Made by a program: the position numbers and the translations under genes. From IMG/VR virus record IMGVR_UViG_3300020420_000009, positions 62,001-126,000 of that record: 64,000 bases of DNA. One strand, written 5' to 3'. The stretch is from a virus. Shown here piece after piece: positions 18,247 to 62,407 of this stretch (within the stretch, counting starts at the first letter, position 1; each line of letters begins with the position of its first letter). The notes beneath the pieces were generated by a model, which saw only the letters and a program-made list of their open reading frames with translations, had not been told where the DNA came from and ran no database searches.

Positions 18247-18255
18247 ATTAGAGTA

Positions 18256-18283
18256 AAACACGACCTTCGGGTCGTGTTTTTTT
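18256..18283 (+). terminator. Strong rho-independent terminator
   Basis: AAACACGACC (18256-18265) pairs perfectly with GGTCGTGTTT (18270-18279) around a TTCG tetraloop, then runs into T. This is the clearest terminator in the window. Confidence 0.92.
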
Positions 18284-18304: not shown

Positions 18305-18312
18305 GATAAATA
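18305..18312 (+). promoter_or_regulatory. Late promoter box GATAAATA, 5 bases before ATG18318
   Basis: Only ACTGT separates the box from the ATG. It follows the strong terminator and so defines the start of the transcription unit that contains the curli-like cassette. Confidence 0.65.
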
Positions 18313-18317
18313 ACTGT

Positions 18318-18614
18318 ATGGAAGATTTGTTTATTTTGATAGGTGAAGTGGGAGCTCCGATTGCTGGTGCAATCGTAATGGGCTTTTTCATATTCATAGT
18401 CATAAAACAAATCTTAGAAAATGTTGTAGATGATATCAAAACACTAACAATGTTCTGTAAATCACTAGAAAATCGTGCAAGGACTATGTCCAACGAAATG
18501 GTGAAGATAGATATGTTAGTTTCAAGTGCGTTAGAATTAAGACCCGATATAGAGAGAATTGCAAGAGCTGAAAACTTTATAGAAGATGAGAGAATTGACG
18601 CTAGGAGAGATTAG
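18318..18614 (+). CDS. Small membrane protein with cytoplasmic helix, first gene of the curli-like unit
   Basis: 98 aa. N-terminal hydrophobic helix (GAPIAGAIVMGFFIFIVI), then a long amphipathic helix (VDDIKTLTMFCKSLENRA) and a charged tail. The layout is shared with the next gene and resembles small holin-like or membrane-scaffold proteins. First gene after a terminator and a late box; overlaps the next start (TAGTG). Confidence 0.6.
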   Translation: MEDLFILIGEVGAPIAGAIVMGFFIFIVIKQILENVVDDIKTLTMFCKSLENRARTMSNEMVKIDMLVSSALELRPDIERIARAENFIEDERIDARRD

Positions 18615-18877
18615 TGTCAGAAATTGGAAGTTTAATCTCTGATTATGGGTTCCCCATAGTTATGATGGTCGGTCTTGGATATTTTATATACTATATTTGG
18701 TGGTTCGTAGGTGAGAAACTAGAACCCGAAATAGAAAAACAACATATGGCACTCATAAAAGTTATTGACCAAGTGCGTATGTTAGACCAAGACCTCATAA
18801 GATTACAGCAAAAAGTTGATGTCGTTCTAGAATATAAAGAGAATGAGAAGAAGAAACGCATAAAGGAGGACACATGA
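18614..18877 (+). CDS. Small membrane protein with coiled coil
   Basis: 87 aa from GTG18614. One transmembrane helix (GFPIVMMVGLGYFIYYIWWF) is followed by a coiled coil (HMALIKVIDQVRMLDQDLIR) and a very basic end. It looks like a diverged tandem copy of the previous gene. Its stop overlaps the CsgF-like start (ACATGAAA), which ties these genes to the secretion cassette by translational coupling. Confidence 0.6.
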   Translation: MSEIGSLISDYGFPIVMMVGLGYFIYYIWWFVGEKLEPEIEKQHMALIKVIDQVRMLDQDLIRLQQKVDVVLEYKENEKKKRIKEDT

Positions 18878-19377
18878 AATTAATTTTACCTATATCGTTT
18901 TTATGTTTAATATTCAGTTTCGGTGCATATGCAGACGAGATTGTTCATAAGTTTAAGAACCCAAGCTTTTCAGGCATTGGGACGGGCGCACATTATCTCA
19001 CGATTGAGAACCAAGAACATAGCAGAAAAAAATCAATCGAAGATGCGCTTGAGGCAGCTAGAAAAGCTGCAGAAAGAGAGGCAGAAAATACAACGCTTGC
19101 CAAATTTATCAGGAATTTAGAATCGCGAATCTATGCTCAATTTGCAAAACAATTAGTTGAATCTATGTTTGCAAATGATAATCCAGTAGGTTTCGGTTCA
19201 TTTATACTAGAAGGGAATACAATTACTTGGGAAGTCATAACAGACGAATCAGGTGCAGAGTTTATCAGATTAACAATCATTGCCGAAGACGGGTCTTCAA
19301 CAGTTGTAGAGATTCCAGTAGGAACTGGAAACTTTGGACAAGACCCCGACACAGGTGGTGGTGACGGAGGAGGCTAA
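18874..19377 (+). CDS. csgF: CsgF-like curli assembly protein (secreted)
   Basis: 167 aa. Signal peptide with a hydrophobic core (LILPISFLCLIFSFGAYA, cut after AYA). The mature start VHKFKNPSFSGIGTGAHYL aligns by eye with the CsgF segment that inserts into the CsgG pore (the FxFxNPxFGG pattern). In bacteria CsgF caps the CsgG channel and links it to the fibre nucleator. The C-terminus ends in a Gly/Asp-rich tail. It overlaps the csgG-like gene by one base (TAATG), and pairing with CsgG makes the assignment secure. Confidence 0.82.
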   Translation: MKLILPISFLCLIFSFGAYADEIVHKFKNPSFSGIGTGAHYLTIENQEHSRKKSIEDALEAARKAAEREAENTTLAKFIRNLESRIYAQFAKQLVESMFANDNPVGFGSFILEGNTITWEVITDESGAEFIRLTIIAEDGSSTVVEIPVGTGNFGQDPDTGGGDGGG

Positions 19378-20279
19378 TGTTTAAAGCTTGCCTTTTAGCA
19401 ATGGTCATTGCCTTATCAGGCTGTGCTTCTTTTCCACAGTGGAGTGAAAACCCACAGGATTGTGGAAGGTGGCAAGAAGGTATAGGTAAAGATGTATATA
19501 CTGCTGTAAAAAAACAATTGTCAAGGAAATACATTTGTGTAGAACACCCTTCAATTGTTAAATTACCAGCATATCTAGAATTACTAGAATTACCACCAGC
19601 TGAAGAAAAACCAATAGTTGCAGTTTATAACTTTTTGGATAAAACTGGACAGAGAAAATCAGTGACTAACATTGCAAGTTTCTCTACAGCAGTGACTCAA
19701 GGTGCAACTGAAATGGTTATAGACGCATTAAAAACTGCTGGAGGTGGGACATGGTTCCGTGTCGTTGAAAGAAACGGTATAGACCATTTAGTCCGAGAAA
19801 GACAAATCATTCGTTCTGCAAGGTCGGATTACGCGAAGAAGACTGAACAATCAGACGAGGGAATACAACCACTGCTATTCGCGGGTATTATCATAGAAGG
19901 TGGTGTAATTGGTTATGATTCTAATATCAAAACTGGAGGAAGGGGCGCACGAACTCTAGGTATTGGTTTTAGTAGACAGTATCGACAAGACGCTGTCACA
20001 ATCTCCATGAGAGCTGTTTCAGTTCTTACGGGGGAAGTTTTATTAAATGTCCAAGCTCGAAAGACTATTTTGAGTTATGGTTCTGGCGGTGATGTTTTTA
20101 GATTCATCGAAGAAGGAACTCAACTGGTAGAAATCGAGGACGGAGTGGGAAATAATGAATCAGTGACTTACGCAACAAGGTCTGCTATTGAAGCAGCCGT
20201 GTTGGAATTAATATACCAAGGCCACGATAGAGGGTTTTGGGTAATAAAGGGGTATAACGAAAATGAAGAAAATAATTAG
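19377..20279 (+). CDS. csgG: CsgG-like outer-membrane curli secretion channel (lipoprotein)
   Basis: 300 aa. Lipobox LSGC with Cys at residue 16. CsgG landmarks are clear: VAVYNFLDKTGQ, FSTAVTQGATEMVIDALK, WFRVVERNGIDHLVRERQIIR, IIIEGGVIGYDSNIKTGGRGAR, GIGFSRQYRQD and KTILSYGSGGDVFRFI. In bacteria nine CsgG subunits form the outer-membrane pore for curli subunits. The segment between the lipobox and the core, about 65 residues, is longer and has extra Cys. It overlaps the curlin-like gene start by 17 bases. Confidence 0.93.
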   Translation: MFKACLLAMVIALSGCASFPQWSENPQDCGRWQEGIGKDVYTAVKKQLSRKYICVEHPSIVKLPAYLELLELPPAEEKPIVAVYNFLDKTGQRKSVTNIASFSTAVTQGATEMVIDALKTAGGGTWFRVVERNGIDHLVRERQIIRSARSDYAKKTEQSDEGIQPLLFAGIIIEGGVIGYDSNIKTGGRGARTLGIGFSRQYRQDAVTISMRAVSVLTGEVLLNVQARKTILSYGSGGDVFRFIEEGTQLVEIEDGVGNNESVTYATRSAIEAAVLELIYQGHDRGFWVIKGYNENEENN

Positions 20280-21006
20280 TTTATGCGTTATCGCATTAAT
20301 GTCGACAAATATTCTTTTCGCACAAGCCACTGATGATAACGAAATCAAAATCACACAGACTGGTGACACACTTAAATTATACATCGACCAAATCGGTTTT
20401 GGAAACAAAATTGGTGGAGACGATGCAAGTGGAGGCTCATTGTCAGCAATGAGTATCGAAGGTTCAGGTCTAGACTTTGACTTTGATTTTTCAGGTAATC
20501 AAAATATTTTATTTGGCCCAGTAATTTCAGATAACTCAACAATCAAGTTGGATTATGTCGGGGATTCAAATTTAATAGATTGGAATATCGGTTATATAGG
20601 TAGCACAGACGATTCTAATATAAATTTTAGTGTCACAGGTTCAAGCAATCAGTTTGACCTTGACCAAGGATATGTCTATAGTGCAGAAAGATTAGATGCC
20701 GATTTAATATTGATAGGTGATTCTAATATTTTTGATGTAGATTGGGAGAGTGACGACTTAACATGGAATTTTGATGTCACAGGTTCTTCTAATAACATTA
20801 ACACTTTACAAAACGATGGAGAACAGTCTTTGACTTTCACATTGGAAGGTGATAGTGCAGATGTTGACATTAATCAAATATCAGGAACATGTGCAGCTGG
20901 AGCAAGCAATAGTTGTGTTTCTCCAAATGCAAATATCGTATTGGATATTACAAGTGACAATTCTGAAATCCAAATTAATCAGAAAGACTCATCTAACGAT
21001 TCTTAA
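20263..21006 (+). CDS. Curlin-repeat-like secreted protein 1
   Basis: 247 aa. Signal peptide (KKIISLCVIALMSTNILFA). The mature chain is built of Asn/Asp/Gln-rich beta-strand repeats, for example NEIKITQTGDTLKLYIDQIG and later DINQISG and EIQINQK, resembling the S/N-x5-Q-x-G-x4-N-x5-Q repeats of CsgA/CsgB. Many GDSN and GSSN turns are present. It is acidic and lacks basic clusters. Lying directly behind csgG, it is the most likely cargo of the channel. It could also be a minor subunit or nucleator. Confidence 0.72.
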   Translation: MKKIISLCVIALMSTNILFAQATDDNEIKITQTGDTLKLYIDQIGFGNKIGGDDASGGSLSAMSIEGSGLDFDFDFSGNQNILFGPVISDNSTIKLDYVGDSNLIDWNIGYIGSTDDSNINFSVTGSSNQFDLDQGYVYSAERLDADLILIGDSNIFDVDWESDDLTWNFDVTGSSNNINTLQNDGEQSLTFTLEGDSADVDINQISGTCAAGASNSCVSPNANIVLDITSDNSEIQINQKDSSNDS

Positions 21007-22114
21007 TTTATTGTTCATCAGTGGGGTCACATTTGCTGACCCCATTGGAGACATAGTAGAATCAACAGGCATTGGTGCAATTGTTAGAAACAATGAATCC
21101 ATAACTTCAAAAGTTGGTTATGGGGTAGAGTTATATGACTCTGCTGAAACAGTCAATGGAAGAATGAAAATCCAATTCCTTGACAGTGAATTCTTAGACT
21201 TAATCGAACACACATTAGTTTTTATAGACGAAGTTTATTACGACCCTAATCCTTCGTTATCAAAAATGTCCTTGAGAATGGTTCAAGGAACCGCCCGTTT
21301 TGCTTCGGGCCAGGGTCAAAAAATCAAAAAAGCAAACATAGATATCTCAACACCAACAGCACAAATAGCTATCAACGGCACAGATTTTACAACAACTATA
21401 GACGAGCTCGGAAGAACTTTGGTTATTCTGCTTCCTGATGAAGACGGAGTCACACCTTCGGGAGAGATAGTTGTATCAAATGAGGGTGGAAGTATCACTC
21501 TCAATCAGGCATATCAGGCAACCATGGTATCTACAATAGAAACACCACCTACAAGTTCCGTAGTAATTAACAACTTAACAACCTCTATGATAGACAATAT
21601 GTTCATTGTATCACCGCCTCAGGAGGTCGCAGAGGCCGTAGAAGAGCAGGCAAGAGAAGATATGAATGATGATAAGGGCGTATTAGATGTAGACTTTCTA
21701 GAGTTCAATGAATTAGAAAAAGACTATGACGACTATGCAAATGACCCCGATTATGACGCAAGAGGAAATAGATTAGATGTGGATTTCTTAGATGTAGATT
21801 TTCTTACAGATGTTTTAGATGTTGTAGAAGAACTAACAAGAACAACAGCTAAACTTGCAGATAGACAAGCAACAACAGGTGGTGGTGTCAGATTAGAGGG
21901 TGCAGTCTTTGGTCTAAACAAAGATTCACAATATAATATATTTGAAGAAGACGGTAATTTAGTCTTTTTCAGAGATGTTAACGGAGTTATTGAGATTATA
22001 ATTGCTCAGGGTAATTCAGGATTCATAGATACTAGAGTAGAAGGATATGAAGGAATCATTGAATTTGGAAATGGAGACCCCGCAATTCAAATCTTCATTA
22101 ATCAATCTAACTAA
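20954..22114 (+). CDS. FecR-domain secreted/periplasmic protein
   Basis: 386 aa if translation starts at GTG20954, which yields a proper signal peptide (basic SKLIRK, then LTILNLLFISGVTFA, cleavage before DP); the frame is open further upstream without a good start. The FecR domain is clear: VESTGIGAIVRNNESI, VGYGVELYDSAETVNGRMKI, MVQGTARFASGQG and STPTAQIAINGTDF. The C-terminal half has tandem LDVDFL repeats (21682-21806). FecR proteins usually sense or relay periplasmic signals. Here it sits between curlin genes and upstream of a CHASE2 cyclase. Confidence 0.78.
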   Translation: MTILKSKLIRKTHLTILNLLFISGVTFADPIGDIVESTGIGAIVRNNESITSKVGYGVELYDSAETVNGRMKIQFLDSEFLDLIEHTLVFIDEVYYDPNPSLSKMSLRMVQGTARFASGQGQKIKKANIDISTPTAQIAINGTDFTTTIDELGRTLVILLPDEDGVTPSGEIVVSNEGGSITLNQAYQATMVSTIETPPTSSVVINNLTTSMIDNMFIVSPPQEVAEAVEEQAREDMNDDKGVLDVDFLEFNELEKDYDDYANDPDYDARGNRLDVDFLDVDFLTDVLDVVEELTRTTAKLADRQATTGGGVRLEGAVFGLNKDSQYNIFEEDGNLVFFRDVNGVIEIIIAQGNSGFIDTRVEGYEGIIEFGNGDPAIQIFINQSN

Positions 22115-22117
22115 ATA
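22110..22117 (+). promoter_or_regulatory. Late-type box ACTAAATA
   Basis: Overlaps the FecR gene stop codon (TAA 22112-22114) and lies 20 bases before ATG22138, which has its own ribosome site AAAGGAG. Confidence 0.5.
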
Positions 22118-22137
22118 CTTATTTAAAGGAGAAATAT

Positions 22138-22284
22138 ATGGACTTATTACACAAAGTTTTGCAATGGCATGAAGATTTGAGTTATAAGTGGATAGAAAGA
22201 CTTGACATAACAGAATATCAAGCCATGTGGTTTGCGTTCGTTAAAGGTCTTATTACAATGTTAGTTTTAACATGGATATTTTAA
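22138..22284 (+). CDS. Small membrane protein (48 aa)
   Basis: ATG22138 behind AAAGGAG. A polar, Trp-rich N-terminal half (VLQWHEDLSYKWIERL) and one C-terminal transmembrane helix (WFAFVKGLITMLVLTWIF). It overlaps the second curlin-like gene by 13 bases and is part of the same unit. Function unknown. Confidence 0.6.
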   Translation: MDLLHKVLQWHEDLSYKWIERLDITEYQAMWFAFVKGLITMLVLTWIF

Positions 22285-22943
22285 AGAACACATTATTAAC
22301 AATCATAGGGATATTATCTATCCCTATGGTTTTTGCAGGCCCAACTGATGATAACCATATTCATGTGGAACAGGTCGGTAATGACGGAGATAATGTTTCA
22401 TTGATTTTAAATCAATTCGGTTATGGTAATACCATAGAATTCTCTTATGCACACTCAAGTAATACTTTCAACCTAACACAAAATGGTGGTGGTAATAAAA
22501 TATCATGGGTTCCATATTGGGGTTCAGGAAAGAGTTGGGGTGGTGATGTAGACGGTTCAAACAATGTAGAAAATGTTTTACAATATGACGGTGCAGAATA
22601 TGGAAGACACATATGGGGCGACAACAACACCGTAGACATATATCAAAGTGGAGACCATACACATTACATAGACATTCATGTTGACGGTGTAGAACATGAT
22701 TCATGGCAAGAAGGAACAGGAACACATTATAGTCACACATATTTTTATGGAAACACAGACGACTCAATTACAAATTTATTACAAAAAGGAAGTGCAAATC
22801 ATAATGCACAGATTAGAATACAAGGGTCAGAACATACAACACTAAATCTTATTCAACAAGGTTCAACAAATCAATCATACACACTAACTCAAAATTGTTA
22901 TACAGTTGGTGGTTGCACGGTAAATGTGACTCAAGGACAGTAA
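22272..22943 (+). CDS. Curlin-repeat-like secreted protein 2
   Basis: 223 aa. Signal peptide (TLLTIIGILSIPMVFAG). Curlin-type repeats are more regular than in protein 1: HIHVEQVGNDGDNVSLILNQ, NTFNLTQNGGGN, NTVDIYQSGD, SITNLLQKGSANHNAQIRIQ and TTLNLIQQGSTNQSYTLTQN. His- and Asp-rich inserts interrupt the middle. Two Cys near the C-terminus could form a disulfide. Good candidate for the main fibre subunit; it begins with the same TDDN-type mature N-terminus as protein 1. Confidence 0.8.
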   Translation: MDILKNTLLTIIGILSIPMVFAGPTDDNHIHVEQVGNDGDNVSLILNQFGYGNTIEFSYAHSSNTFNLTQNGGGNKISWVPYWGSGKSWGGDVDGSNNVENVLQYDGAEYGRHIWGDNNTVDIYQSGDHTHYIDIHVDGVEHDSWQEGTGTHYSHTYFYGNTDDSITNLLQKGSANHNAQIRIQGSEHTTLNLIQQGSTNQSYTLTQNCYTVGGCTVNVTQGQ

Positions 22944-24784
22944 TGTATTCTTGGAAGACAGTCCTAGTGACCATAGGGTTGCTCTTCGGACTCAAAGTTT
23001 GGAATCCATATCTAGTAGAAAATATCACATGGTCATGGTTTGACTTCTTACACCAATCTCACGAAATAGAACAAGTCGATAATATTGTTCTAGTTGACAT
23101 AGACGAAAAATCTTTAGAAAAATATGGTCAATATCCTTGGCCAAGAAACTTATATTCAGATATACTTTTTGAATCTCACTATTCAAACACTCATGTATTC
23201 ACACAATTATTCAAAGAACCTGATAGATTTCAGGGTGACGAATCATTTGCAGAGGGATTAGTTAATCGTCTAACGATACTTTCAGCTGCACCAACAATCC
23301 AAAAAGATACTGGTTCTGCACCATATGTTAGGACTTCTATATTTGGTGGAGGAGATATATCAGAACATATATGGAACTTCTCGGGTATTGCAAGTCCAGT
23401 TGATATCCTGAAACAAAATACTTATGGAGTTGGTGTGACAGTCACTACTCCAGCTGTCAGCGGAACTCCTAACTTTGACGGGACTGTTCGTTCTGCACCC
23501 CTGATAGTTTCTGCAAATGAAGTTGTATATCCTTCTGTTGCATTAGAAGTCATGCGTGCAATGTTTGACCAAAAGAATTATCAGACTAGAGTCACACCCG
23601 AAGTTGGTATTGAATGGATTCGTATAGGAAGGAATCCACCGATACAAACTACACCAACTGCTGATGTTATGATTTCATATTGGAATGAGTTTCAAAGAAT
23701 ATCAGCAGCTGATTTATCTAATTCAGATATTCAGGGTAAGATTCTTGTATGGGGTCTGACTGCTGAGGGTCTGAATAATCCAGTTTCAACCCCAGTGGGT
23801 GTAATGTATCCCCACGAAGTTCAAGGGAATATCCTCCACTCCGTCTCCACAGGAGTTCAAATACAACAATCCTACTATCTTGAATTTGTATCTCTCGTTC
23901 TTCTTTTGTCAGTCCTTCTAGGAATATTGGTAGTGGTTTACAAACTTCCCACAGTTTTTTCGGGGATAGTGAGTCTAGGTATTGTTGGATTTCAGGTGGG
24001 TGGGGGTCTCTATTTGTGGTCTTCATCTCTCGTTCTTTTCGATATTTTCTACTCATCGATTGCCTCCATAGTTGTGTTTGGACATGCTTCCTTTAACAAA
24101 TACTATAGAACATATCAACTCAAAGAACAAATCAAGAAACAGTTCCAAAAATATTTATCTCCTGACATGGTTGACGAACTGGCTAAAAACCCTGAAAAAT
24201 TGAGACTTGGTGGAGAAAGAAAGGAAATGACCTTCATGTTCATGGACATATGTGGGTTCACTCCCATAAGCGAACACTATAAAAATAATGACGACCCCGA
24301 AGGTTTAGTCGAACTCATAAACAAGTTCTTAGATATGCAAACAAAAATCATCATAAATAATCAAGGAACTATCGATAAATATATGGGCGACTGTATCATG
24401 AGTTTTTGGAATGCTCCCTTGGACTGTAAAAACCATGCTGAACTCGCTGTAAAATCTGCACTGGAGGTGTTAGATGCAACTAAAGAACTTAATAAAGAAC
24501 TCTCTCCTCTCAATCTTCCTCCTATCAATGTCGGCATTGGTATCAGCACAGGAGAATGTATTGTCGGAAACATGGGGTCAGAAGTTAGATTTGACTATTC
24601 CGTCATTGGAGACGCAGTCAACTTGGGTGCTAGACTCGAGGGCCAAACAAGGAATTATGATGGGGTGGACTTGTTGTTATCGGAAAGAACTTATCAGTGC
24701 TGTCCAAATGGAAGCTTCACAGAAGTCGATAGGATACTTGTCAAAGGCAAATCAGAGAAGGTTCGAATATATACACCGATATGA
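22943..24784 (+). CDS. CHASE2-domain transmembrane class III adenylate cyclase
   Basis: 613 aa. An N-terminal transmembrane helix (WKTVLVTIGLLFGLKVW) is followed by a periplasmic CHASE2 sensor (VLVDIDEKSLEKYGQYPWPR onward), three membrane helices at about 315-390, a linker helix and a cyclase domain. Catalytic residues are complete: metal Asp435 in FMDICGFT, substrate Lys479 and metal Asp483 in DKYMGD, adenine-selecting Asp557 with Asn560 and Arg564 in GDAVNLGAR. Lys/Asp predicts ATP as substrate and cAMP as product. It starts on the last A of the curlin-2 stop (TAATG), so it is coupled to the secreted fibre genes. Confidence 0.9.
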   Translation: MYSWKTVLVTIGLLFGLKVWNPYLVENITWSWFDFLHQSHEIEQVDNIVLVDIDEKSLEKYGQYPWPRNLYSDILFESHYSNTHVFTQLFKEPDRFQGDESFAEGLVNRLTILSAAPTIQKDTGSAPYVRTSIFGGGDISEHIWNFSGIASPVDILKQNTYGVGVTVTTPAVSGTPNFDGTVRSAPLIVSANEVVYPSVALEVMRAMFDQKNYQTRVTPEVGIEWIRIGRNPPIQTTPTADVMISYWNEFQRISAADLSNSDIQGKILVWGLTAEGLNNPVSTPVGVMYPHEVQGNILHSVSTGVQIQQSYYLEFVSLVLLLSVLLGILVVVYKLPTVFSGIVSLGIVGFQVGGGLYLWSSSLVLFDIFYSSIASIVVFGHASFNKYYRTYQLKEQIKKQFQKYLSPDMVDELAKNPEKLRLGGERKEMTFMFMDICGFTPISEHYKNNDDPEGLVELINKFLDMQTKIIINNQGTIDKYMGDCIMSFWNAPLDCKNHAELAVKSALEVLDATKELNKELSPLNLPPINVGIGISTGECIVGNMGSEVRFDYSVIGDAVNLGARLEGQTRNYDGVDLLLSERTYQCCPNGSFTEVDRILVKGKSEKVRIYTPI

Positions 24785-25097
24785 TTTAGTTGACCCACCC
24801 ACAAAAGCTGACTGGTCACTATTTGTTTTATTACAATTTGCAGATGTCTACACAACTTCCCGTGGTCTTAAATATAAATGTGTAAAAGAAATAAATCCTT
24901 TCATAGGTGATAGACCGTCTAGAAAAGATATGATATACACAAAGGTTGCTGTATTAACTCCTGCTTTTCAAATCGATATTAATAGAGGTGAACTTACTCG
25001 AAAATCAATGAGAAGTGTAAATACAATTATGTCACTTGTAATATTGAATAATTATGAAGTGATGCAGAAGGCAGAAAGATACTGCGAAAAAATATAG
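24738..25097 (+). CDS. DUF5658-like membrane protein, start uncertain
   Basis: About 119 aa if TTG24738 is used; the frame is open further upstream but that part is a shadow of the cyclase gene. The recognisable part is WSLFVLLQFADVYTTSRGLK, then CVKEINPFIGDRPSR, resembling small membrane proteins of the DUF5658 type (LxxADxxxT ... E-x-NP). Two or three membrane segments are expected. It ends the curli/cyclase region; an early-type promoter follows 10 bases later. Confidence 0.5.
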   Translation: MSKANQRRFEYIHRYDLVDPPTKADWSLFVLLQFADVYTTSRGLKYKCVKEINPFIGDRPSRKDMIYTKVAVLTPAFQIDINRGELTRKSMRSVNTIMSLVILNNYEVMQKAERYCEKI

Positions 25098-25205: not shown

Positions 25206-25616
25206 ATGACGCATTTAGATATATTTGGTCAATTCAGACCGTTCGCAATAGGATTTGATAGGTATTTCGAAGACCTCGAAAGAATGTCAAATATCACACA
25301 AACCAATTACCCACCTTACAATGTTGTAAAGGAAGACGATGAACATTTCAGTGTCGAACTTGCAGTTGCTGGGTTCAGTAAGAAAGATGTTTCTATCACT
25401 AAAGAGAAGAATGTCCTTGTTATTGAAGGTAAAGTAGAAGATGAATCTAAGGACTTTGTCCATAAAGGTTTGGCTTCTAGAGCATTTAAGAGAAGCTTTA
25501 CACTTGCAGATGATGTAGAAATCAGTGGTGCAAGTCTAAAAGACGGTATCTTGGTTGTGAGTTTAGAGAGAGTTGTTCCCGAAGAGGATAAACCTGTCTC
25601 TATAAAAATTTCTTAA
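25206..25616 (+). CDS. hsp20: Small heat shock protein Hsp20
   Basis: 136 aa alpha-crystallin-domain chaperone that holds unfolding proteins, common in marine T4-like phages. N-terminal FDRYFEDLERM; core PPYNVVKEDDEHFSVELAVAGF; KNVLVIEGK; the conserved AxRxFxRxFxL region as SRAFKRSFTLADDVE; LKDGILVVSLER and the C-terminal I-x-I (IKIS). ATG25206 is preceded by AGGAG. Confidence 0.92.
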   Translation: MTHLDIFGQFRPFAIGFDRYFEDLERMSNITQTNYPPYNVVKEDDEHFSVELAVAGFSKKDVSITKEKNVLVIEGKVEDESKDFVHKGLASRAFKRSFTLADDVEISGASLKDGILVVSLERVVPEEDKPVSIKIS

Positions 25617-25619
25617 AAC

Positions 25620-25630
25620 CCTATATACAG
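25620..25630 (+). promoter_or_regulatory. CCTATATAYTA motif, variant copy 4
   Basis: CCTATATACAG follows the hsp20 stop by 3 bases; its last G begins an 11-base inverted repeat. Imperfect at the final positions compared with the other copies. Confidence 0.3.
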
Positions 25631-25664
25631 AATAGACTTCTGTTGTTATAATGGAAGTCTATTC
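25624..25664 (+). promoter_or_regulatory. Candidate promoter/operator with 11-base perfect inverted repeat
   Basis: GAATAGACTTC (25630-25640) and GAAGTCTATTC (25654-25664) are perfect inverted repeats flanking a 13-base centre that contains TATAAT (25647-25652). A weak -35 (TATACA, 25624-25629) sits 17 bases upstream of it. A dimeric repressor binding both arms would cover the -10 box; alternatively the transcript folds into a stable hairpin. Upstream of the peroxiredoxin gene. Confidence 0.5.
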
Positions 25665-25690
25665 ATATTATATGAGAGAGGTATTATATT

Positions 25691-26188
25691 ATGTATGAAG
25701 TTGGAAGGATTATTCCTAGAATAAGATTTAAAGTCAGAGTTGACGGTGAATGGGATACTATTGATAGTCATGTCATAACCGAAGGTAAAAGAGTCGTAAT
25801 CTTTGCACTGCCTGGCGCATTCACACCAACATGTTCTACTTTTCAATTGCCTGGCTTCGAGGAAGCATATTCTAAATTCAAAGAAAAAGGAATAGACGAA
25901 ATTTACTGTTTATCAGTTAATGATACATTCGTCATGAATTCTTGGTTTCAAGCTCAAGGAATAGAAAAAGTAAAAGCATTGCCTGACGGAAGTGCAATGT
26001 TCACAATAGCACTAGGTGCAAATGTTCAAAAAGATAACTTAGGTTTTGGAACTAGGTCTTGGAGATATGCAATGGTTGTAAACGATACTAGAGTCGAACA
26101 GATATTTTTCGAAGATGGTTTTGGTGACAATGCAGAATCAGACCCATACGAAGTTTCTTCACCCGAGAATGTTTTAGAAAATCTTTAA
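25691..26188 (+). CDS. Peroxiredoxin (Prx5-like)
   Basis: 165 aa thiol peroxidase. The active site PGAFTPTCS places the peroxidatic Cys at residue 48 with the usual Pro and Thr; the supporting Arg is probably in FGTRSWRYAMVV. The fold markers VVIFALPGAF and IYCLSVNDTFVMNSW match the Prx5/AhpE group. It would remove peroxide during infection and could draw electrons from the glutaredoxin encoded at 57399. Such a gene in a phage is uncommon. Confidence 0.9.
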   Translation: MYEVGRIIPRIRFKVRVDGEWDTIDSHVITEGKRVVIFALPGAFTPTCSTFQLPGFEEAYSKFKEKGIDEIYCLSVNDTFVMNSWFQAQGIEKVKALPDGSAMFTIALGANVQKDNLGFGTRSWRYAMVVNDTRVEQIFFEDGFGDNAESDPYEVSSPENVLENL

Positions 26189-26196
26189 AAACCCAC

Positions 26197-26226
26197 TTGT
26201 CAATATGACTATGTTTATGTTAATAT
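26197..26226 (+). promoter_or_regulatory. Early-type promoter (18-base spacer) of the DNA-modification operon
   Basis: TTGTCA at 26197-26202 and TAATAT at 26221-26226 with an 18-base spacer; ATG26233 follows 7 bases later. It would switch on methyltransferase, TET-like enzyme and partners together. Confidence 0.65.
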
Positions 26227-26232
26227 AGTCAT

Positions 26233-27486
26233 ATGACTTACTTTCAATACAGTTTAAAAGACCTACAGGAACGCAGTTCCGAAAAGAAATTTTCTTATAT
26301 TACATTCTTTGCAGGCGGTGGTGGTTCATCGTGTGCATATAAACTCGCAGGTGGTGATGTTAGATACATGAATGAGTTTCAACAGATTCATGTAGACACC
26401 TATCTTGCAAATTTCCCAAACACAGTTCATGAATGTAAAGATATTAAACAAGTCACAGGTGAAGGTATTATGGAACTCACTGGACTTAAAAAGTTTGAAC
26501 TGGACATACTAGACGGTTCACCACCTTGTCCACCATTCTCTATGGCTGGAACTAAAAGAGAAGGTTGGGAACAAGAGAAAATGGCTTACGGTATGAAACA
26601 ACAAAATATCGAAGACCTTACTTGGGAACAAATTAGAATCACAAAAGACTTAATGCCTAAAGTTATTGTATGTGAAAATGTAAAAGGTCTATCTATGGAT
26701 TATGCAAGAGACCACCTAAACAAAATGGTAAACGATTTTGAAGCATTAGGTTATTCAGTCACATGGAAAGTTATGAAAGGTCATGAACATGGAGTTCCAC
26801 AAAAGAGAGAAAGGGTATTCATGGTTGGTGTTAGAGACGATGTATTAGATACAATCGGAATGCCATTCATGTGTTTGAGTGGTTTATTTCCACAACCTTC
26901 TAATGAAAGAACAAGTATAGGTGAAGCAATTAATGATTTAGTAGACGACCCTACAAATGTCGAAGATGCTAAATACCTAGAACAGGCAATGATTGAAAGT
27001 TCAAAAGGTCATTGGGTGCATGGATTTGAAAAACACCCCGACCCCGAACTTTCTCACTGCACTCCCTGTAAAGGGATTGACGGAGTAAACGGAGATAACA
27101 TGTCTTATATTTCTATAGGAGACCATATTGTAAAACCATGGTATCAAGAAAACATAAGACTAGGAAACATTCCACCCGAGAATGAAAAACATTCTTATTA
27201 TATGTCAAGGATTGTTCCCGAAAATCTTCCAGCTCATTCACTAACTGAACAAGGTTGTCAACCAAAATTTATGGGTGGTAATCATTTTCATTATAGTGGT
27301 AAGAGAATATATACTCCAAAAGAAATGGTTAGACTTATGTCTTTACCAAATGATTATAAAATGACAGGTGATTACAATGACAAAGGTGCAAGGATAGGAC
27401 TTATGGTTGCACCACTATGTCTATATTACCTAGTAGAACAAATTAAGGAGCAAATATTGGAACCATGGAATTCGTTGCAAAAGTAG
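26233..27486 (+). CDS. DNA (cytosine-5) methyltransferase
   Basis: 417 aa. C5-MTase motifs in order: motif I FFAGGGGSSCAYKLAGG, motif IV GSPPCPPFS with catalytic Cys99, motif VI CENVKGL, motif VIII QKRERVFMVGV and motif X GLMVAPLCLYYLV. It transfers methyl from SAM to C5 of cytosine; the target site lies in the divergent region around residues 210-330. No restriction enzyme is next to it. Instead it overlaps a TET-like dioxygenase gene, which suggests the methyl group is further oxidised. Confidence 0.93.
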   Translation: MTYFQYSLKDLQERSSEKKFSYITFFAGGGGSSCAYKLAGGDVRYMNEFQQIHVDTYLANFPNTVHECKDIKQVTGEGIMELTGLKKFELDILDGSPPCPPFSMAGTKREGWEQEKMAYGMKQQNIEDLTWEQIRITKDLMPKVIVCENVKGLSMDYARDHLNKMVNDFEALGYSVTWKVMKGHEHGVPQKRERVFMVGVRDDVLDTIGMPFMCLSGLFPQPSNERTSIGEAINDLVDDPTNVEDAKYLEQAMIESSKGHWVHGFEKHPDPELSHCTPCKGIDGVNGDNMSYISIGDHIVKPWYQENIRLGNIPPENEKHSYYMSRIVPENLPAHSLTEQGCQPKFMGGNHFHYSGKRIYTPKEMVRLMSLPNDYKMTGDYNDKGARIGLMVAPLCLYYLVEQIKEQILEPWNSLQK

Positions 27487-28463
27487 ACCACGGGTTTAAA
27501 GAAACCTTTGATAAATGGAATGGTAAGTTTCTGAAAGAAGATTCTTATGACGAAGTTATATCTTCAATTGGAGTAAAAGAAGATATCATAAAGATATCTA
27601 AACCAGTTGCAGCTATAGACGGTGATTCACCACCACTTGCATATATTGTTAAGAATGCATATACTGGAAAAGATTATCAAGATATAAAGGACACATTGTT
27701 TTCTATAGACGATGTATCTACTATGAGAGCAAATGCATCAGGCCCAATCGACCACGAAGAAATGAAAAAGAAAGGTTTGATTGAAGGAGTCCATTATAAA
27801 TTAAGAACACCTAACTCTTACTACCCTCTTAAAAAGAATGGTAAGTTCAATCGTATTGCAGAGGCAAATGCAATTCATTCAGTATTGATTGGATATAAAA
27901 GAGGAAGATTTACAGGAATGATTAATCCTAGTGGTTGGATGAAAAAGAAATCTAATCAAGAGAAATGGGAAGTATTACAAAGAATTGCACCCCTCAATGA
28001 GGCTGCATTAAAGAAAGCCTCCCCCAGTGTGTGGCGTCAGCAGAGAGCATTTGCTGACAACTATATTGAAAGTAAGTATCACATAGGGGGAGCACCTATT
28101 ACAGCTTTATCTGCAAACAGATATTCAAGTGAAGGGACTGCAAAAATGTCTGCACACTTAGACGGTAAAGATTTAGAATTTGGATTGACAACAATGTGTG
28201 TTTTTAGAATCGGTGATTTTAAAGGTGCATATCTTTGTTTTCCAAGATACGGAATTGCAATTGAAGCTGACGATGGTGATGTATTGATTGCAGATTCTAA
28301 TGAATTACATGGAGTCACACCTATCGAAGGAAACGGTGTAAGACTATCATGTGTTGCATATTGTGATGAACATGTTGCAACAAAGGGTATCGGTGGAAAA
28401 TCCGAGAATCCTATCGGGCCCCATAATAAAGATAAACAAGGGTCACTCGATGAATTCTTTTAA
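27465..28463 (+). CDS. TET/JBP-like 2OG-Fe(II) dioxygenase
   Basis: 332 aa. The C-terminal domain resembles TET/JBP enzymes that oxidise methyl groups on DNA bases: HxD iron motif AHLDGKD (His231, Asp233), distal His282 in NELHGVTP and 2OG-binding Arg293 in GVRLSCVAYC. The central region is basic and aromatic (YKRGRFTGMINPSGWMKKK), suitable for DNA contact. Its start lies inside the methyltransferase gene (22-base overlap), so the two are made together. Expected reaction: 5-methylcytosine to 5-hydroxymethylcytosine in phage DNA. This is an inference from fold and context. Confidence 0.72.
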   Translation: MEFVAKVDHGFKETFDKWNGKFLKEDSYDEVISSIGVKEDIIKISKPVAAIDGDSPPLAYIVKNAYTGKDYQDIKDTLFSIDDVSTMRANASGPIDHEEMKKKGLIEGVHYKLRTPNSYYPLKKNGKFNRIAEANAIHSVLIGYKRGRFTGMINPSGWMKKKSNQEKWEVLQRIAPLNEAALKKASPSVWRQQRAFADNYIESKYHIGGAPITALSANRYSSEGTAKMSAHLDGKDLEFGLTTMCVFRIGDFKGAYLCFPRYGIAIEADDGDVLIADSNELHGVTPIEGNGVRLSCVAYCDEHVATKGIGGKSENPIGPHNKDKQGSLDEFF

Positions 28464-61773: not shown

Positions 61774-62407
61774 AGACTATGGGATACTAGACAAGTATCA
61801 ACTAAACTCAAATCTTATTATATTGTTTGACGAAATCATAAATGTTGAAATGTGTGAAACATTGATTGTTGATTTCCAAAGTATACCAGCTGTAGAAACT
61901 GTAGTTATTGACGGTGTAGAACTACCAAAAGATGAGAAAATAAGAAACGAGGGTGTGTGGAGAGTAGAAAACAGACCCGACAATCAATGGGCAGTTCTCA
62001 ATAAGACAAAAGTATTAGATGATGTAGTGCAAAAGATAGACTTTGCATTACCAAAAGGATTCCATTTTGGAAATGTCACTCAAGGACAGTTTTTTCAATT
62101 GGGTGAGGGAGACCATGTTCCATGGAGTAATGCACAAAGTGAAATGGAGAAGGGAGATAGTGGAACAGTTATTATTTTTCTCAATGACGATTTTACAGGT
62201 GGTGATTATGTTGTTAATAATCATGTAATCAAGACAAGACAAGGAACAGTGATAGGACACAACTATCACCAAAATTTATGGACAAGTTTTCAACCCATAC
62301 ATAAAGGGTGCAGATTTTATTTACAACTCTATTTTGAGTTGCCAACAGATTTACAGGAGATAGTGGACAATGCCAGTGAAGTTCGGGAAGAGTCAAGTCA
62401 GAGTTGA
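61760..62407 (+). CDS. 2OG-oxygenase-fold protein with altered HxD (oxygenase run, 3)
   Basis: 215 aa. The fold pattern is present (QFFQLGEGDHVPWSNAQSEM; VIIFLNDDFTGGDYVVNNHV; YHQNLWTSFQPIHKGCRFYL), but the usual H-x-D/E is H-V-P-W, so the iron-binding acid seems lost. The distal His and Arg (HKGCR) remain. It may be inactive, a regulator of its neighbours, or use another ligand. Overlaps the previous gene by 14 bases. Confidence 0.65.
   Translation: MDITRDYGILDKYQLNSNLIILFDEIINVEMCETLIVDFQSIPAVETVVIDGVELPKDEKIRNEGVWRVENRPDNQWAVLNKTKVLDDVVQKIDFALPKGFHFGNVTQGQFFQLGEGDHVPWSNAQSEMEKGDSGTVIIFLNDDFTGGDYVVNNHVIKTRQGTVIGHNYHQNLWTSFQPIHKGCRFYLQLYFELPTDLQEIVDNASEVREESSQS

Follow-up and report, generated by a model that had tools for sequence, protein, structure and literature searches.

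The closest described system is the type VIII secretion (curli) module of pelagiphages, for which Wittmers et al. 2022 (PMC9599517) reported the genes csgF-csgG-csgA/B-FecR-csgA/B-adenylate cyclase in SAR11 myo- and podophages. Indeed, the records of HTVC008M (gp011-gp019) and Melnitz (gp97-gp104) carry the same module in the same order. The stretch of DNA analysed here (the window, 64,000 nucleotides, positions 62,001 to 126,000 of IMG/VR record IMGVR_UViG_3300020420_000009) encodes this module. An earlier note, made from the sequence alone, had regarded its coupling of FecR and cyclase as undescribed, but this coupling is already present in that publication and in both records, so the novelty of the gene set is low. 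New with respect to published work are the complete linkage of the genes, a bacterial operon of the same composition, the tail of the FecR protein, a late-promoter box and the absence of a kinase at the position published as 'histidine kinase'.

According to the ORFs of the window and profile searches, the block consists of tightly coupled genes on the + strand at 18,318-24,784 (Table 1). The genes listed in the earlier note are all present: two small membrane proteins, CsgF, CsgG, the curlins, FecR, the tiny protein and the CHASE2 cyclase. In Pfam searches CsgG, CsgF and the first curlin scored above the cut-offs, and FecR, CHASE2 and Guanylate_cyc were matched. The TAATG and ACATGA overlaps were likewise confirmed: mem1/mem2 overlap by 1 nt, mem2/csgF by 4 nt (ACATGA), csgF/csgG by 1 nt (TAATG), csgG/cur1 by 17 nt, cur1/fecR by 53 nt, tiny/cur2 by 13 nt and cur2/cyclase by 1 nt (TAATG), the sole gap being the 23 nt between fecR and tiny. 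The extent given previously (18305-25097) holds as a coupled block, with its start corrected to 18,318 and its end to 24,784; the ORF reaching 25,097 is a separate, ill-defined DUF5658-like frame outside the block. An ORF overlapping the end of the cyclase resembled a signal-peptide gene but was rejected, its conservation being explicable by the cyclase frame. The FecR start is most likely the GTG at 20,954 and not 20,849, because this GTG adjoins the codon aligned with the ATG of the homologues; a non-standard start was dropped in its favour.

Table 1. Features of the curli/FecR/cyclase block and its flanking elements (positions in the window)
Feature	Position	Strand	Description
Terminator-like element	18255..18280	+	palindromic hairpin then T run, directly before the block; parts it from the upstream gene
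ATAAATA	18306..18312	+	predicted T4-type late-promoter box, 5 nt before mem1
mem1	18318..18614	+	98 aa; one TM segment and coiled coil; phrog_18771
mem2	18614..18877	+	87 aa; starts with GTG; same PHROG as mem1, whose paralogue-like partner it is
CsgF-like	18874..19377	+	signal peptide, FxNPxF CsgG-binding N-terminus; Pfam 1.9e-11
CsgG-like	19377..20279	+	outer-membrane lipoprotein pore; Pfam 5.6e-53
cur1	20263..21006	+	first curlin-repeat protein; 247 aa; signal peptide; Pfam Curlin_rpt 4.5e-5
FecR-domain protein	20954..22114	+	386 aa; GTG start; signal peptide; Pfam 5.6e-7; tail IQIFINQSN
CTAAATA	22111..22117	+	possible second late promoter, before tiny/cur2
tiny	22138..22284	+	48 aa; single TM
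cur2	22272..22943	+	second curlin-like protein; 223 aa; signal peptide; C-terminal VNVTQGQ
Cyclase	22943..24784	+	613 aa; CHASE2, TM segments and class IIIb-like adenylate cyclase domain; CHASE2 1.3e-28, Guanylate_cyc 9.9e-19 (Pfam)

The arrangement is not due to chance, since about 80 viral loci show the identical order. FecR is encoded in all 67 csgG loci with enough flanking sequence and the cyclase in 45/45; conversely, csgG and FecR precede the cyclase in each of the 45 cyclase loci. The earlier note had made its case depend on this linkage, which is conserved, and its view of the block as a curli-type secretion cassette of a phage, with FecR and a CHASE2 cyclase coupled to it, stands. 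The csgF/csgG genes adjoin mem1 in 64 of the 65 mem1 loci, csgG being located elsewhere on the contig in the remaining one, and tiny occurs in 40 of 83 loci, roughly half. No Pfam kinase domain was detected in mem1 or mem2 and no HATPase_c anywhere in the phage record, so that nothing supports a kinase identity for these two proteins at the position published as 'histidine kinase'. The first 20 residues of mem2 match a holin family weakly.

A T4-type late box lies upstream of mem1 in 50 of 52 distinct loci, as against 1/213 upstream of mem2, csgF, csgG and cur1, and TAAATA precedes tiny/cur2 in 23 of the 24 distinct loci having that gene. This signal is informative only in such a position-specific comparison across loci, a simple count of TATAAATA across the window being not above chance.

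Regarding the exporter, residues F26, P29, F31, G33 and L41 of E. coli CsgF are invariant in the alignment with phage CsgF. The CsgG protein shares 42% identity with E. coli CsgG, its lipobox Cys is invariant, and in the constriction the Phe is kept and the Tyr and Asn are changed. No match to CsgE (PF10627) was found in the 129.7-kb record, which may itself be incomplete, and a closed, selective exporter is therefore not assured; CsgE raises curli release yet is dispensable (PMC7029224). For the presumptive cargo, the AlphaFold model of cur1 is beta-rich (pLDDT 79, pTM 0.73), with no confident fold match to the PDB by Foldseek, and cur2 matches the curlin repeat (0.01, Pfam) and CsgA (1e-6, NCBIfam) below both cut-offs. 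Curlin repeats are weak in the proteins of the block. The alignments used for structure prediction left out rows from GenBank phage records.

Each of the 71 complete phage FecR proteins, which between them have 31 distinct tails, ends in a curlin-like half-repeat, [IV]x[IV]xQ. Across 1,224 distinct viral ORFs with a length of 150 aa or more it was found in 150, namely 77 FecR and 73 cur2 proteins and no others. The C-terminus of E. coli CsgB (AIRVTQR) follows the same pattern. The moderately confident FecR model (pLDDT 67) resembles PupR/FecR cell-surface-signalling domains (Foldseek 3.5e-5); its likeness to a cell-surface anchoring domain (9.3e-3) is weak. The protein carries an N-terminal signal peptide and lacks a cytoplasmic anti-sigma domain. 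The record gave no match to an ECF sigma factor (Sigma70_ECF, PF07638), and a plasmid search with FecR gave none either. The earlier assignment to a periplasmic sensor type is thus borne out by the FecR domain but is incomplete because of the curlin-like C-terminus. This ending resembles that of a curli fibre protein, and FecR is probably a reporter for the fibre. The tail might not serve as an anchor, since CsgB is still taken into CsgF condensates when its last repeat is missing (PMC10133297).

In the cyclase, the catalytic alignment recovers both metal Asp residues (D435 and D483), the substrate Lys (K479), Asn (N560) and Arg (R564). The statement that all catalytic residues are present holds for these five but not for the adenine-specifying Asp, whose position is occupied by Ser553, and by Thr in CyaB. 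In class IIIb cyclases, Thr or Ser replaces this Asp. The best PDB relatives by sequence, 6fht (1.1e-33) and CyaB (8.2e-29), are adenylate cyclases. No cNMP-binding domain was found in the phage record; the idea of a phage-encoded cAMP receptor was therefore dropped, and the target of cAMP would have to be the host's.

Bacterial curli operons have been stated in published work to lack FecR and cyclase. This is contradicted by Hyphomonas sp. TMED17 (NHBW01000006.1, locus L091, on a 705-kb contig), which encodes csgF-csgG-curlin-fecR-CHASE2-cyclase in one run on one strand; because this bacterial operon has the same genes, the module is not clearly a phage invention. Its cyclase is sister to those of the phages (clade support 100) and its CsgG falls in the phage CsgG clade (support 96). 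The TMED17 branch is long and is placed weakly inside the phages by CsgG (88) and outside by the cyclase (93), so the two trees disagree on the direction of transfer. Among 105 relatives from the TMED17 family (cyclase profile) and 385 Alphaproteobacteria (FecR profile), the only full-length match was TMED17 itself, and the bacterial form is thus rare or undersampled. FecR and CHASE2-cyclase form a bacterial gene pair: a FecR ORF lies within 3 kb of 10 of the 19 best bacterial CHASE2 cyclases (seven on the same strand), and one of these ORFs encodes a 2,190-aa cadherin/laminin-G adhesin-like protein. In Burkholderia, a FecR/CHASE2 operon (BiofilmReg) governs biofilm (PMC5192318), and Sinorhizobium CyaD1 without CHASE2 produces cAMP constitutively (PMC5498481).

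The block is best read as the pelagiphage curli module, here in a T4-like marine phage and with late expression, whose FecR reports on the fibre via the CHASE2 cyclase, a proposal to which we give an even chance. CsgG would form the outer-membrane pore, with CsgF seated in its outer mouth through the FxNPxF N-terminus, and we infer that cur1 and cur2 are exported to build an amyloid-like surface fibre. FecR would then be a curlin-tailed reporter and not an iron regulator; its FecR domain would sit in the periplasm or at the pore's base, and the half-repeat at its C-terminus could join or cap curlin, a role that the CsgB end may have in E. coli. Through a putative contact with CHASE2, FecR would signal the export or assembly of fibre subunits to the cyclase, which would set cAMP in the infected cell. 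More tentatively, and with the balance against it, the phage block could be a self-monitoring exporter in which FecR, either exported or retained at the CsgG pore, links the export of amyloid to cAMP synthesis through CHASE2. It would be one case of a wider bacterial principle whereby a surface fibre or adhesin is marked by a FecR domain and its state is read by the CHASE2 receptor encoded next to it. The benefit to the phage might, speculatively, be that sibling cells or virions already released are kept together in late infection. Melnitz-infected cultures showed no clumping (Buchholz et al., PMC9004378), which counts against the main reading.

The same publication proposed a lysis or leakage role for Melnitz. 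In such a reading, CsgG/CsgF without CsgE would act as a gated secretin or pinholin and permeabilise the envelope when infection ends, the curlin-like proteins being plugs or leftovers. The missing CsgE, the late-type box and the short holin-like match of mem2 agree with this, but an outer-membrane CsgG alone cannot depolarise the inner membrane, and a bare pore explains neither the retention of CsgF and two signal-peptide curlins in nearly all complete loci nor the FecR-cyclase pair, which makes this role rather unlikely. A block to superinfection by the exported fibre or an altered outer membrane (an idea in PMC9599517) draws on the fact that surface amyloid can limit phage access; it is improbable, as the conserved late-type box suggests expression past the time when exclusion would be most useful.

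An import pore for iron siderophores or cobalamin, with FecR as an iron-type sensor, was proposed in PMC7029224 and PMC9599517 and fits the FecR family name. The lack of an ECF sigma factor in the record and of an anti-sigma domain in the signal-peptide-bearing FecR, together with a curlin tail that points to a fibre and not to a TonB receptor, renders it very improbable. Finally, it is barely credible that the cyclase is a Pycsar-type pyrimidine cyclase serving defence or counter-defence: PADLOC PycC models do match its catalytic domain (3.1e-25), but class III cyclases broadly match one another and the match was judged generic, the record has no cNMP-binding effector, the best PDB sequence relatives are adenylate cyclases, and the linkage to FecR and curli is constant.

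The hosts of phages carrying this module are among the ocean's most abundant bacteria, and with the common tail, the late box and the bacterial sister operon, proposals that were vague become testable questions. If the proposed signalling from FecR to CHASE2 is true, it would provide a function for the FecR-CHASE2 gene pairs common in Proteobacteria.

In comparison with known systems, the block shares genes, order and phage group with the pelagiphage module (PMC9599517; Zaragoza-Solas et al. 2020, PMC7029224), differing at the 'histidine kinase' position, where it has two TM proteins of 90-100 aa that lack kinase domains, and in the extra TM gene tiny of about half of the loci. With E. coli csgBAC/csgDEFG it shares CsgG, CsgF, curlin-repeat subunits and the CsgB tail pattern, but it is one transcription unit with FecR and a cyclase and no CsgE found. 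The likeness to FecR/PupR cell-surface signalling is confined to the FecR domain fold, the ECF sigma factor, cytoplasmic anti-sigma domain and TonB receptor partner being absent from the block. The TMED17 operon lacks mem1/mem2 and encodes a single 504-aa curlin-like protein instead of two; its FecR, unlike that of the phages, has no curlin tail, so FecR-cyclase signalling would not need the tail. The other bacterial FecR and CHASE2 operons resemble the block in that a periplasmic or surface FecR-domain protein adjoins a CHASE2 receptor, but they lack csgFG and their FecR is fused to LysM or adhesin domains in place of a curlin tail; the output domain is a kinase in Burkholderia BiofilmReg and a cyclase in the phage.

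The curli-type block of the window (see the table for gene order) belongs to a module that is real, conserved and mostly published. Its genes overlap at all junctions except one. CsgF, CsgG, the curlin repeat of Cur1, FecR, CHASE2 and the cyclase domain are above Pfam cut-offs; Cur2 is below the Pfam cut-off and resembles CsgA in NCBIfam. At its N-terminus, CsgF retains F26, P29, F31 and G33, which in E. coli belong to the pore-lining segment within CsgG (structure in PMC7304575). CsgG keeps the lipobox Cys and shares the constriction Phe with the E. coli eyelet, but not its Tyr and Asn.

Features of the module region (window positions)
Feature	Position	Strand	Remarks
Nine-gene block	18,318-24,784	+	mem1, mem2 (small membrane proteins), csgF, csgG, cur1 (first curlin-like protein), fecR, tiny (48-aa single-TM protein), cur2 (second curlin-like protein), CHASE2 cyclase
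207-aa frame	24474-25097		shares the final 310 bases of the cyclase gene, read in a different frame; signal-peptide-like beginning
Frames 3' of the block	25206-28463		resemble a small heat-shock protein, a peroxiredoxin and a DNA cytosine methyltransferase

The 207-aa frame enters a weak DUF5658-like region past the cyclase stop, and a start codon near this stop is not obvious; the conservation of its early part may follow from that of the overlapping cyclase gene.

The whole virus record (129,718 bases, of which the window spans 62,001-126,000) has T4-like phage family matches for a DNA polymerase, a replicative helicase, an SbcC-like exonuclease subunit, a CobS-type porphyrin-biosynthesis protein and ribonucleotide reductase. 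The nearest named-phage polymerases are those of marine cyanomyophages (47.6% identity). The host is likely to be SAR11 or a relative, since the curli proteins are nearest to those of Pelagibacter phage HTVC008M (CsgG 44%, cyclase 39%) and Methylophilales phage Melnitz.

In pelagimyophages, csgF, csgG and a curli-associated protein were reported and 'sibling capture' was proposed (Zaragoza-Solas et al. 2020, PMC7029224); for Melnitz, a lysis role was proposed and clumping was not seen (Buchholz et al. 2022, PMC9004378). The coupling of curli genes to FecR and a cyclase, which the earlier note considered undescribed, had already been published: FecR, a second curlin gene and an adenylate cyclase were found in the same module of myo- and podophages, together with its wide distribution and expression (Wittmers et al. 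2022, PMC9599517). The linkage itself, whose absence from related phages would have spoken against that note, is present wherever enough flanking sequence is available. Among the 80 viral loci fetched with the window's CsgG, a FecR gene follows csgG in 67/67 phage loci whose downstream sequence reaches 2.5 kb or more, and the cyclase in 45/45 where it reaches 5.5 kb or more; conversely, in a search that started from the cyclase, csgG and FecR accompany it in each of the 45 loci whose upstream sequence is long enough. Each search contributed its 80 best loci, which are relatives of the window rather than a random virus sample. mem1 is tied to the block in 64 of 65 loci, the remaining contig carrying csgG elsewhere.

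A phage contig (L381, L394) with a methyltransferase-like gene after mem1-mem2, the cyclase on the opposite strand and an internal TAG in csgG carries the module in rearranged or decaying form. The same module region also occurs in two viral contigs (L384, L386) that are much longer than HTVC008M, at 216,820 and 339,794 bases; either misassembly or a large phage may account for this. A 1,499-base record titled Salmonella phage (OR851715.1) holds an unannotated csgG and may be host DNA.

FecR and the cyclase have been stated to be absent from bacterial curli operons. This is contradicted by a single genome, the MAG Hyphomonas sp. TMED17. When the CsgG alignment was scanned against one genome per species (84,980 species), phage contigs binned into bacterial MAGs, many ordinary csgFG loci and one locus with the full set were recovered. 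The latter, on a 705-kb TMED17 contig (NHBW01000006.1), carries csgF, csgG, a 504-aa curlin-like gene, fecR and a CHASE2 cyclase in a single run on one strand, flanked by ordinary bacterial genes (e.g. TonB receptor plug, acetyl-CoA hydrolase, FAA hydrolase); unlike the phage block, it lacks mem1 and mem2. In the cyclase tree it branches, with full clade support, as sister to the phages as a whole; its CsgG, on a long branch, falls among those of phages (support 96). No such cyclase (E <= 1e-60) was found in the 104 other members of its family searched, and the full-length FecR type occurs in TMED17 only among 385 Alphaproteobacteria. Other module-bearing contigs within bacterial assemblies (L084-L090, L092, L093, L100, L101), labelled Sphingobacteriales, Flavobacteriales, Rhodobacteraceae, Planctomycetes or Synechococcus, are of phage type and likely reflect binning contamination of public genomes.

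Phage FecR carries a curlin-like tail, which the TMED17 FecR lacks. The pattern [IV]x[IV]xQ, followed by no more than two further residues, ends 71/71 complete phage FecR proteins, among which 31 different endings occur; a slightly looser pattern ends 150 of 1,224 distinct viral ORFs (at least 150 aa), all of them FecR (77) or Cur2 (73). These tails compare with the E. coli CsgB C-terminus, AIRVTQR. In Cur1, IQINQKD lies near the C-terminus in the window and IDIIQRD forms the extreme C-terminus in HTVC008M. AlphaFold gives short strands of modest confidence for the last 75 residues of FecR. The FecR domain itself is similar to that of PupR and to further domains of the FecR type; a cell-surface anchoring domain is a weak match. 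We infer that phage FecR may join or cap curlin, or that the same partner may recognise both. A role of the tail in anchoring to CsgF does not necessarily follow, since CsgF droplets still take up CsgB that is missing its last repeat (PMC10133297).

Judging from its promoter-like motifs, the block probably forms a late transcription unit. ATAAATA, the late box of T4-type phages, occurs within 120 bases 5' of mem1 in 50/52 distinct loci, the commonest distances to the ATG being 5 and 19 bases, and in 1 of 213 cases 5' of mem2, csgF, csgG or cur1. A second box, TAAATA, precedes tiny in 23/24 loci, and a hairpin with a T run lies 5' of the late box in the window. In HTVC008M, the box precedes 10/32 structural-half and 4/40 replication-half genes, a modest difference.

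The place labelled histidine kinase in the published module (PMC9599517) is held here by mem1 and mem2, without a kinase domain: neither matched one, and HATPase_c was not found in the virus record. Both belong to one PHROG annotated without function, each with one TM segment and a coiled coil. In the cyclase, D435, D483, K479, N560 and R564 are conserved and Ser553 aligns with the CyaB Thr. As Thr or Ser at this site is the rule for class IIIb adenylate cyclases, the sequence would fit this class. In Melnitz-type phages, the activity may differ because Ser replaces the catalytic Asn. The same replacement, in the motif GDSVSTAAR or GDAVSTAAR, is seen in the cyclases of three loci (L003, L093, L101), which share a C-terminal extension with the TMED17 cyclase. 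No cNMP-binding protein was found in the phage record.

The bacterial operon, the curlin-tailed FecR, the late box and the absence of a kinase are thus added to the published picture, and point, with roughly even chances, to a fibre exporter monitoring itself via FecR, CHASE2 and cAMP. CHASE2 cyclases (E <= 1e-70) are encoded in 150 of 398 Pseudomonadota genomes sampled. Among the 19 best other CHASE2 cyclase loci fetched, none has csgG nearby and ten have a FecR-domain ORF within 3 kb (seven on the same strand), one of 2,190 aa with cadherin, laminin-G and Ig domains. In Burkholderia, a biofilm-regulating operon combines a FecR/LysM protein with a CHASE2 kinase (PMC5192318), and a Sinorhizobium cyclase without CHASE2 produces cAMP constitutively (PMC5498481). 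Given these bacterial FecR neighbours and the Burkholderia operon, FecR-CHASE2 is a general bacterial pair, which the phage block couples to a curli exporter.
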